A stretch of DNA of 45,997 nucleotides from Deltaproteobacteria bacterium (GTDB lineage Bacteria; Desulfobacterota; Syntrophorhabdia; Syntrophorhabdales; Syntrophorhabdaceae). The stretch is taken from assembly GCA_029777945.1 (NCBI GenBank), contig JAKORG010000038.1:1-45997 (forward strand). Reading direction: 5' to 3'. The notes under the pieces were generated by a model. The model searched no databases, was not told where the DNA came from, and saw only the letters and a list, made by a program, of their open reading frames with translations. Below are positions 1,914 to 6,107 of this stretch, in pieces. The number at the start of each line of letters is the position of its first letter. Position 1 is the stretch's first letter. A program made the translations under genes and the position numbers.

Positions 1914-2666
1914 ATGGATTATTCGATTAAAGAAAACAATATCTTATTAAACATACCCGCCACTAATGCCGGTAAATTCAGATTTAAGAAAAGACAAAAT
2001 AGATTAGATTTTGGTAAAACCTTCTCGACAAGAGAAGGGATATTTGATGAACAAACATACTTGGAATGGCAAATAGGTTACGATGTCCCCATTAACGATG
2101 TTGAATCTGGCAAAAAAGGCACAAAATTAACAAGCAAGCATTTTATTGGAAGTAACGGAAAAACAAAATATCCTTATGAATTATCAGAAATATTTTATAA
2201 TGCTATGGAATTAAAATTTATCTCTATAGAAGAAGTAGAAAACTTGCTTAAAGAAATAAGCAATTATAAATATTTTATAGATGAAAAATCCATAACAGTT
2301 GAGCGTCAATCACTATTAACTATAAATGGAATAAATTTTGAGGAAACAAGCATCAAATTACCAACACTTTTCATGGTTGAAACTCCGGATAATACTCAAA
2401 TAGAGATTTCTATCCAAAAACAACAATATGCAACTGGTGTTCAGCCAATGATATATTTTTGTATACCATTAAAATCATTTGTAAATTATTCAGACTTTCT
2501 TGGCAAATCATCTGTATCCTGCGATAAACTTGTATATGTTATAAATAAAAATAATGTTTTGAACCTTATTTATATGATGAAAGTATTTGGGATGGCATCC
2601 AAAAGGCACAATCATGATGTTGTTGAAATTCTTAAAATACTCCTCGAAATCATAAGAAGGCGATAG
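1914..2666 (+). CDS. Putative type II restriction enzyme, possibly R.PabI-like
   Basis: A 250-residue protein squeezed between two methyltransferases with 2-nt gaps on both sides; the position alone suggests the cognate nuclease. It has no PD-(D/E)xK, HNH or GIY-YIG motif that I can see. Its candidate polar residues R30, Y56, K169, H232 and D235 fall in the same order as the functional residues described for R.PabI (R32, Y68, K154, H211, D214). The C-terminal pair again has H-x-x-D spacing and lies 15 residues from the end (12 in PabI). R.PabI enzymes cut GTAC by removing adenine (DNA glycosylase) rather than by hydrolysing the phosphodiester. The family assignment is a hypothesis from residue pattern only; a general 'restriction endonuclease' call is safer. 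Confidence 0.5.
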   Translation: MDYSIKENNILLNIPATNAGKFRFKKRQNRLDFGKTFSTREGIFDEQTYLEWQIGYDVPINDVESGKKGTKLTSKHFIGSNGKTKYPYELSEIFYNAMELKFISIEEVENLLKEISNYKYFIDEKSITVERQSLLTINGINFEETSIKLPTLFMVETPDNTQIEISIQKQQYATGVQPMIYFCIPLKSFVNYSDFLGKSSVSCDKLVYVINKNNVLNLIYMMKVFGMASKRHNHDVVEILKILLEIIRRR

Positions 2667-2668
2667 TT

Positions 2669-3850
2669 ATGCAAGTCCATTTGGCAGAACATTTACCGAA
2701 AAATAAAAAGGTCCAATTAGGTAGTTACTATACTCCTGAGAAACTTGTCAATCGGGTTCATGAATTTGTAAAACACTACTTAGAAAACAGAAAAACAAAG
2801 TGTATTATTTTTGACAGTGCTGGGGGTTGTGGTGCTTTTATATTTAAGTTTAAAAATTATGATTATAGGATAGCGGATTGTGATTTAAAAGCCTGCGAAT
2901 TTCTTAAACAACATTTCAAACCACACAAGATTTTTCATTCTAATTCTTTAAAGGGAGCTAATAGAAATAAATATTTAATTCCTTCTTCTGCATTCTTAAT
3001 AATGGTGGGAAATCCTCCTTATAATGATACAACATCAGAATTTAGAAAAGGGGAAAAGGGGCAAAATATTTGTGATGAAGACTTATATGATAGAGACATA
3101 GGGATTTCATTTTTAAAATCATATCATAAACTTAATGCCGATGTTGTTTGCGTATTACATCCGCTATCGTATTTAATAAAAGAGAGTAATTTTAAGAGAT
3201 TGCGAGATTTTAAGGACAATTATAGATTAATAAAAGGCGAAATATTTTCCAGCGCTTTGTTTCATGGAACAGGGACAGGGAAATTTCCGATATTAGTAGC
3301 TCTTTATGAAAAGTGTCCAGGTGGAATGACGTTTGATTATATCAGGAATTTCAGATTTAACATATTAGGTAGCTCCAAAACTTTTGTTTTATCCGATTTT
3401 AAAACTACTGATGGATATATCAATAAATATCCTCCACGCAAAAACGATGTTCAGAAATCTCCGATTGGTTTATATTACTACTCATTTAGAGATATTAACT
3501 CATTAAAGAAAAATGCTTCTTTTATGATAAGAGAGCATCCTAATGGAATTGTGGTGACGTTGGAGAATTTTTATAAATATTCTTATCTTTATGCATTCAA
3601 AAATCTGTTTAATCCTGAAGATGCTTGGCTGTATGGGAACTTATCCCCTCTTGTCAATATAGAGGATGTCGAGAAAAACAAAAGACTTTATGTCTTATAT
3701 GCTATTAAAACTAATAAAATTTTTGGAGAAATAGGAGATTTTGTTATAAAGAAGATTTCAGATTATTATAAAATTACATTCGATGACACAAATAAAGTCT
3801 CTGAGATAGAGAAGACAATTAAAAATAAATTAAACAAATTAATTAACTAA
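2669..3850 (+). CDS. N6-adenine DNA methyltransferase (NPPY type)
   Basis: Contains motif X-like L-G-S-Y-Y-T-P (residues 17-23), an SAM-binding motif I (D-S-A-G-G-C-G-A-F, 49-57) and the catalytic N-P-P-Y (115-118). This is the X-I-IV order of gamma-type N6-adenine methyltransferases such as the Eco57I/TaqI relatives. The approximately 200 C-terminal residues probably form a target-recognition region. It starts 2 nt after the putative nuclease stop, so it belongs to the same operon. A second methyltransferase next to a beta-class one is unusual for a simple palindromic type II system. It could modify the other strand of an asymmetric site or belong to a merged system. Confidence 0.8.
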   Translation: MQVHLAEHLPKNKKVQLGSYYTPEKLVNRVHEFVKHYLENRKTKCIIFDSAGGCGAFIFKFKNYDYRIADCDLKACEFLKQHFKPHKIFHSNSLKGANRNKYLIPSSAFLIMVGNPPYNDTTSEFRKGEKGQNICDEDLYDRDIGISFLKSYHKLNADVVCVLHPLSYLIKESNFKRLRDFKDNYRLIKGEIFSSALFHGTGTGKFPILVALYEKCPGGMTFDYIRNFRFNILGSSKTFVLSDFKTTDGYINKYPPRKNDVQKSPIGLYYYSFRDINSLKKNASFMIREHPNGIVVTLENFYKYSYLYAFKNLFNPEDAWLYGNLSPLVNIEDVEKNKRLYVLYAIKTNKIFGEIGDFVIKKISDYYKITFDDTNKVSEIEKTIKNKLNKLIN

Positions 3851-4953: not shown

Positions 4954-5035
4954 TGCCGACGGCGGGACTTGAACCCGCACGGGTTTCCCCACACGCCCCT
5001 CAAACGTGCGTGTCTACCAGTTCCACCACATCGGC
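4954..5035 (-). tRNA. leuU: tRNA-Leu (anticodon GAG)
   Basis: Read leftwards, a full cloverleaf with a 7-bp acceptor stem GCCGATG/CGTCGGC, the class II long variable arm, the T-loop GGTTCAAGTCC and the anticodon loop TTGAGGG, giving anticodon GAG (reads CUC and CUU). CCA is not encoded. It lies 8 nt downstream of secG in the same direction. The same secG then tRNA-Leu(GAG) order is known in E. coli (secG-leuU), so this arrangement looks conserved. It is probably processed from the gap-pgk-tpiA-secG transcript. Confidence 0.95.
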
Positions 5036-5043
5036 TCTATTTA

Positions 5044-5352
5044 CTACTTATTATTCGGAACAGGTGCCTTTACAGGCACCTTCTCCTCAGCTTGAGTGCT
5101 TGCAGGTTTTACCGTGTATTCTTTATGACTATAAAAATATGCAAGCAACAAGCTGGTTATCATAAACACCACCACAGCAATAGTTGTAAGTTTCGTCATA
5201 AAGGCAGTGGAGCCTGAACTACCAAATAAAGTTTGGCTTGAACCTGCTCCGAATGCTGCACCTATTTCAGAACCTCTACCTGTTTGTAAAAGAACAATCA
5301 GTATCAGTGCTATGGATATTATTATATGTATAATCGCAATTACAGTCAACAT
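5044..5352 (-). CDS. secG: Preprotein translocase subunit SecG
   Basis: SecG is the small auxiliary subunit of the SecYEG channel in the inner membrane and helps SecA-driven export. The 102 residues show an N-terminal hydrophobic helix (about 1-22), the conserved L-L-Q-x-G-R-G-S-E-I-G-A-A-F-G loop with a G-S-S-Q-T-L-F-G-S-S-G segment, a second membrane helix (about 52-71) and a polar tail. Its ATG overlaps the last base of the tpiA stop codon, so the two are translationally coupled. Linkage of secG to tpiA and a tRNA-Leu is common in bacteria. Confidence 0.93.
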   Translation of the reverse strand: MLTVIAIIHIIISIALILIVLLQTGRGSEIGAAFGAGSSQTLFGSSGSTAFMTKLTTIAVVVFMITSLLLAYFYSHKEYTVKPASTQAEEKVPVKAPVPNNK

Positions 5353-6107
5353 TATCTTTTCTCCGCAACTTTTTTTATTATACCAACAAAGCTTTCGCCT
5401 TTCAAGGATGCACCGCCTACAAGTGCACCGTCTATATCCTTCATCTCTATTAAAGAACCTATATTATCCACTGTAACACTTCCACCATATAATATCAAGA
5501 GTTTATCTGCAGTATTTCCGTATTTTTTTCTAATCATCTCTCTTATAAAAAAATGGACCTCTTCTGCTTCTTCTGGAGTCGCATTTTTACCCGTGCCTAT
5601 TGCCCACACAGGCTCATAGGCAATCACGATATTTGAAATATCTTGAATCCCGTACAGCGCCTTTTTTATTTGAATACCCACTACAAACTCAGTAATGTCT
5701 TTTTCCCTCTCTTCCAGTGTTTCACCTACACATAAAATAGGTTTTAAACCTGTTGATAGTGCCTTTTTTAACTTTAAATTTATGTTTTCATCTGTTTCAT
5801 TGAAATATTTTCTCCTCTCAGAATGTCCTATGATTACATATTGGCAGCCTGCATCTTTTAGCATAATAGGGGATATTTCGCCTGTATAGGCCCCTTTGTC
5901 TTCAAAATACATATTTTGTGCAGAAAGTTTAATATGAGAGCCTTTTATGGCATCTGACACAGCAAATAGATATACAAAGGGAGGCGATAGGACAACCTCC
6001 CCGTTTTTTATATCCTGTGTATTAACGACTATATATTTTGCCAGCGCTTTTGCCTCATCTTGTGCGGTGTTCATCTTCCAGTTTCCTGCAACCATCCACC
6101 CCCTCAT
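5352..6107 (-). CDS. tpiA: Triosephosphate isomerase
   Basis: Interconverts dihydroxyacetone phosphate and glyceraldehyde 3-phosphate in glycolysis and gluconeogenesis (cytoplasm). The TIM-barrel active-site set is complete: N9 and K11 in G-N-W-K-M-N, H95 in I-G-H-S-E-R-R, and E165 in Y-E-P-V-W-A-I-G-T-G, the canonical numbering. The phosphate-binding Y-G-G-S-V and G-A-L-V-G-G-A-S-L motifs are near the C-terminus. 251 residues is normal. It starts 2 nt after pgk stops and is part of the gap-pgk-tpiA-secG group. Confidence 0.97.
   Translation of the reverse strand: MRGWMVAGNWKMNTAQDEAKALAKYIVVNTQDIKNGEVVLSPPFVYLFAVSDAIKGSHIKLSAQNMYFEDKGAYTGEISPIMLKDAGCQYVIIGHSERRKYFNETDENINLKLKKALSTGLKPILCVGETLEEREKDITEFVVGIQIKKALYGIQDISNIVIAYEPVWAIGTGKNATPEEAEEVHFFIREMIRKKYGNTADKLLILYGGSVTVDNIGSLIEMKDIDGALVGGASLKGESFVGIIKKVAEKR

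Follow-up and report, generated by a model that had tools for sequence, protein, structure and literature searches.

We identified a three-gene locus in which a member of the R.PabI restriction family (positions 1914-2666, forward strand) is flanked by a beta-class DNA methyltransferase (1180-1911, forward) and a gamma-class N6-adenine methyltransferase (2669-3850, forward), near one end of the 45,997-nucleotide stretch of DNA analyzed here, hereafter the window. We consider it very likely that the central gene product, termed R, is a GTAC restriction glycosylase with the gamma methyltransferase as its partner. This kind of system is already known; the three-gene composition, the separate R lineage and the gene order are new.

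The central gene encodes an R.PabI-family protein

The R open reading frame has an ATG start, encodes 250 amino acids without interruption, and is separated from each neighboring gene by 2 nt. The protein matched the Pfam profile PF09522 (RE_R_Pab1) with 76.8 bits (E = 2e-21), above the curated cut-off of 25 bits, and its sequence matches in the PDB included R.CcoLI (7cfa; E = 2e-26) and R.PabI (E = 8e-12). An AlphaFold model, built with nine homologs after a plasmid-derived row had been left out of the alignment, reached a pLDDT of 88 and a pTM of 0.84 and showed the half-pipe fold of the R.PabI family. When this model was compared with the PDB using Foldseek, all 16 matches with E < 0.001 were chains of R.CcoLI or R.PabI, the best being 7cfa (E = 5.6e-20, TM 0.80/0.85). 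Other nuclease folds were rejected, as none gave a confident match; the outcome that the initial annotation had named as refuting did not occur. Searches of NCBIfam and PHROGs with R gave no match, and no R homolog was found in collections of phage and viral sequences. A PF09522 match in genome G957 was rejected: it scored below the cut-off and contained internal stops, and no methyltransferase gene was seen among the surrounding open reading frames. The initial annotation had proposed the R.PabI family as a possibility from a handful of residues and the gene position and had named profile or structure-prediction searches among the ways to check it. Such a residue pattern could arise by chance, whereas full-length matches to a Pfam profile, to PDB sequences and to PDB folds could not; these establish the family assignment.

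Catalytic and GTAC-reading residues

In R.CcoLI, three residues have been assigned to catalysis and ten to base recognition, and an insertion brings Lys71 into the active site, where it serves AP lyase activity (PMC7806768). Alignment showed that Y56, H232 and D235 of R correspond to the R.PabI triad Y68, H211 and D214, and that all ten base-recognition residues (K21, R23, E51, Q53, I54, Q171, Q177, M179, Y181 and F225) are identical to those of R.PabI and R.CcoLI. R also has the R.CcoLI-type insertion beside the catalytic tyrosine, with D57, N81 and K85 at the positions of D53, N67 and K71; the putative lyase lysine K85 had been missed in the initial annotation. Of the five residues listed there as equivalents of R.PabI residues, the three of the triad were correctly placed, whereas R30 and K169 were not: R.PabI R32 aligns with R23, and K154 with Q170. 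Conservation of the triad, the ten GTAC-reading residues and K85 makes a bifunctional enzyme of mesophilic type, excising adenine from GTAC and opening the resulting abasic site, the best prediction for R. The GTAC target proposed earlier is likewise strongly supported by the ten residues predicted to read it.

The base-flipping loop of R has no lysine at the K154 position, K169 being adjacent to it. Glutamine at this position is common to the whole clade of R in our tree, and the K154A mutant of R.PabI has reduced activity (PMC7229829), as would be expected if R were decayed or inactive and the locus persisted for its methyltransferases. We regard this explanation as highly improbable: the reading frame is intact, clade members that are 42-82% identical to R keep all catalytic and base-recognition residues, and a Campylobacter homolog has arginine at the same position. 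Because the K154 position varies within the family, lysine there was not treated as defining.

GTAC sites in the host genome and its family

GTAC was counted on sampled stretches of each genome. The observed/expected ratio in the host genome was 0.28 in the window and 0.21 in another 100 kb. In the same family, the ratio was 0.06 in a relative lacking R and 0.82 in a relative of another genus that carries it (G125). GATC, CTAG and GGCC were also low in the host genome; in the window together with L050-L054, CTAG occurred once against 66 expected, and GATC was strongly depleted. We rejected GTAC depletion as proof of R activity in the window, since it does not follow the presence of R in the family: the relative without R is more depleted, the R-bearing relative shows hardly any depletion, and low counts extend to other palindromes. 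Depletion in the host is compatible with current R activity and is not evidence for it.

The downstream gamma methyltransferase is the expected partner

The gene at 2669-3850, adjoining R, encodes a 393-residue protein with the NPPY motif of gamma-class methyltransferases, and it matched the PADLOC profile PDLC03275 (E = 9e-53), which marks it as an m6A methyltransferase of the M.PabI/M.CcoLI type. It is 41% identical, at 83% coverage, to the methyltransferase partner of Campylobacter R.Pab1, and 53-81% identical to the gamma enzymes of other systems in the clade. Among 72,556 plasmids, the gamma methyltransferase METHYLTRANSFERASE matched only 14 records, all from Campylobacter, and plasmids with an R.Pab1 homolog equally numbered 14; in the one Campylobacter plasmid inspected, the two genes are adjacent. 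By homology and position, this putative GTAC methyltransferase is the expected cognate partner of R.

In the closest described systems, those of R.CcoLI and R.HpyAXII from Campylobacter and Helicobacter (PMC7806768, PMC4615327), the restriction enzyme belongs to the same family and shares the fold and the catalytic, GTAC-reading and AP-lyase residues, and the gamma methyltransferase is homologous. R differs in being only 34% identical, in forming a separate clade, and in the glutamine at the base-flipping position; its gamma gene follows R instead of preceding it, and an extra beta gene stands in front. R.PabI of Pyrococcus abyssi (2dvy, 3waz) shares the half-pipe fold, the triad and the recognition residues with R at 31-32% identity. 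By contrast, it lacks the lyase insertion, its gene lies tail to tail with that of its methyltransferase, and that gamma enzyme is longer. Known bacterial PabI systems have the methyltransferase gene upstream of the restriction gene on one strand, archaeal ones have the two tail to tail, and both have one gamma methyltransferase (PMC4615327). The order M(beta)-R-M(gamma) fits neither arrangement.

A beta methyltransferase as an additional component

The first gene, at 1180-1911, encodes a 243-residue protein that matched PF01555 (E = 7.8e-33) and has the motif order of the beta class, DPPY first and DPFIGSGST after it. The placement of R between two methyltransferases, as originally annotated, was thus borne out, with one of the beta class upstream and one of the gamma class downstream. 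The main texts of the publications on PabI systems consulted here describe an adjacent gamma methyltransferase, and we found no beta-class enzyme in them. The beta methyltransferase METHYLTRANSFERASE is the new element of the system, the gamma type being already known. Its predicted structure was of low confidence (pLDDT 43.9).

The order M(beta)-R-M(gamma) was found in four other genomes: G125, L002 (an unclassified MAG), L003 (an Elusimicrobia MAG, on a 61-kb contig) and L004 (an Atribacteria MAG); MAG binning errors could mislead on the hosts, not on the gene order. Beta recurs beside R in unrelated MAGs, being conserved in L007, L002, L003 and L041 and truncated in L004. In L003, the beta sequence departs from the other copies at its N terminus (5236-5400, forward) and is close to them elsewhere, as if the gene were recombinant. 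L005 carries R and gamma without beta, indicating that beta is not essential.

A different combination was present in L041 (genome G774, of the same phylum as L003), where an archaeal R.PabI-type enzyme is joined to a window-type beta. The L041 beta is 82% identical to the window beta over 213 amino acids. The R of L041 is 25% identical to the window R and 42% to R.PabI, and groups with archaeal PabI proteins in the tree (support 0.995), and its gamma methyltransferase belongs to a different family (PDLC03311, E = 1e-133). The archaeal-type R of this locus (1-2998, reverse) seems to lack the lyase lysine and has glutamine there. Among 248 genomes of this phylum, close beta homologs (E below 1e-40) occurred only in the two genomes with an R above the cut-off and in one contig-end fragment. 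A shared GTAC target would be the simplest reason for beta to be kept while R and gamma were both exchanged, and we think that beta probably protects GTAC as well.

Alternatively, the locus might be a standard two-gene PabI system with a changed gene order, and beta might read a different motif as a mere co-mobile passenger or regulator. Consistent with this, R and gamma stand alone in L005, one methyltransferase suffices in the Campylobacter systems, and a solitary close homolog of beta was found on a viral contig. Yet beta is the most conserved part in G774, heads the operon and accompanies R among the 248 genomes, so that we hold this alternative to be possible but somewhat doubtful. The viral homolog (L068, 4280-4945, forward) is 80% identical to the window beta, with no R within the 9.9-kb stretch examined; close by is a family A DNA polymerase with a fused uracil-DNA-glycosylase domain.

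DpnII is a backbone-hydrolysing enzyme. In Streptococcus pneumoniae, the DpnII system (DpnM, DpnA and DpnII; PMC3573125) likewise pairs a single restriction enzyme with two dissimilar methyltransferases; its target is GATC, and the comparison with the window system covered methyltransferase class and size. With this DpnM/DpnA precedent in DpnII strains (PMC3573125), beta could be a DpnA-like enzyme that methylates GTAC in single-stranded DNA and so protects DNA taken up by transformation, leaving double-stranded DNA to gamma. Beta is small and a DpnA-named entry is among its PDB matches, but CcrM, MboIIA and other beta enzymes match equally well or better; for this reason a DpnA-like role, which we judge unlikely, is not favored by similarity.

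Promoter match and genomic location

A perfect match to a sigma-70-type promoter (TTGACA-17-TATAAT) lies at 1092-1120 on the forward strand, some 60 nt upstream of the beta gene, where 0.06 such matches would be expected in the window. G125 has an 11/12 promoter match at a nearly equal distance before beta, and no equivalent was found at three other loci. If this promoter is used, protection would be made before restriction, beta being the first gene of the operon.

Upstream of the system is a remnant of an IS3-type transposase (592-795, reverse), recognized by weak Pfam matches of its integrase core to rve_3 and rve_2 (E = 6e-5 and 1e-4). On the other side, the system adjoins tRNA-Leu(gag) (4954-5035, reverse), part of a tRNA-Leu(gag)-secG-tpiA block kept in five relatives; no R was found in the stretches around this block in these relatives. 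Within the phylum, R was found in 2 of 395 genomes searched, the window genome and G125. The three system genes have a GC content of 0.30; outside them, the window has 0.37. The tRNA-side site, the transposase remnant, the rarity of R in the phylum and the lower GC content fit acquisition by transfer, and the flanking genes differ between M(beta)-R-M(gamma) loci, indicating that the cassette moves.

Orphan relatives in Pyrinomonadaceae

Two R.PabI homologs in the clade of the window R come from Pyrinomonadaceae: one from SSF56 (G424; L006, 5929-6735, forward) and one from G1034 (L083, 1483-2283, reverse), which are 75% identical to each other. The N termini of both are strongly hydrophobic and resemble signal peptides, with a 10-residue hydropathy of 3.1 as against 1.1-1.8 elsewhere in the clade. 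In L006, no change affects the catalytic triad, the lyase lysine or any of the ten recognition residues (L083 was aligned pairwise only). Each gene lies near a PHB-regulator gene with no methyltransferase beside it, and a search for methyltransferases of the M.PabI type found none in either genome.

GTAC was absent from the sampled DNA of both genomes, with 263 sites expected in 246 kb of G424 and 32 in 38 kb of G1034 (together about 295). Of the 24 genomes sampled in this family, these two had the lowest ratios; 0.05 and 0.09 were found in two that lack R, and the rest ranged from 0.35 to 0.99. GGCC was almost absent from G424, G1034, G731, G1023 and G1027, with or without R (L065-L067, L088-L100, L105-L107, L126, L139), suggesting another strong site-removing pressure in Pyrinomonadaceae. 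As GGCC is nearly gone also in members without R, site loss has other causes too.

Discussion

We propose that the three genes in the window form a mobile restriction-modification system for GTAC, with a restriction glycosylase at its core. R would bind GTAC as a half-pipe dimer, flip out the unmethylated adenine and excise it by means of Y56, H232 and D235; K85 would then open the abasic site by beta-elimination, leaving foreign DNA broken. The gamma methyltransferase would convert host sites to GTm6AC, and beta, transcribed first, would act as a second protector, most likely of the same site, perhaps where gamma is slow, as on DNA that has just been replicated, is single-stranded or has recently entered the cell. 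The analysis shows the family, residues and predicted fold of R, and the gene order with its repeated occurrence; from these we infer the activities and GTAC specificity of the three proteins and the role of beta.

A 2015 survey found the bacterial range of restriction glycosylases to be almost confined to Campylobacter and Helicobacter. We tentatively suggest that the system described here represents an undescribed third lineage of these enzymes, in which two new forms of self-protection may have arisen: a portable beta methyltransferase, also seen on a viral contig, that would double the protection of GTAC and stay while R and gamma are exchanged, and, in Pyrinomonadaceae, an exported enzyme that would dispense with methyltransferases in a genome purged of GTAC. 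If true, carrying a restriction glycosylase as an exported orphan, in a genome without GTAC, would be a novel means of tolerating such an enzyme.

Restriction glycosylases are an exception to the hydrolysis of the DNA backbone by restriction enzymes. Our analysis extends these exceptions to a distinct bacterial lineage and to an architecture of three genes, one of whose methyltransferases was retained while its partners were replaced; a related branch seems to do without cognate methylation altogether. How a cell tolerates a restriction glycosylase is the question that these loci raise, and one that they now make testable.
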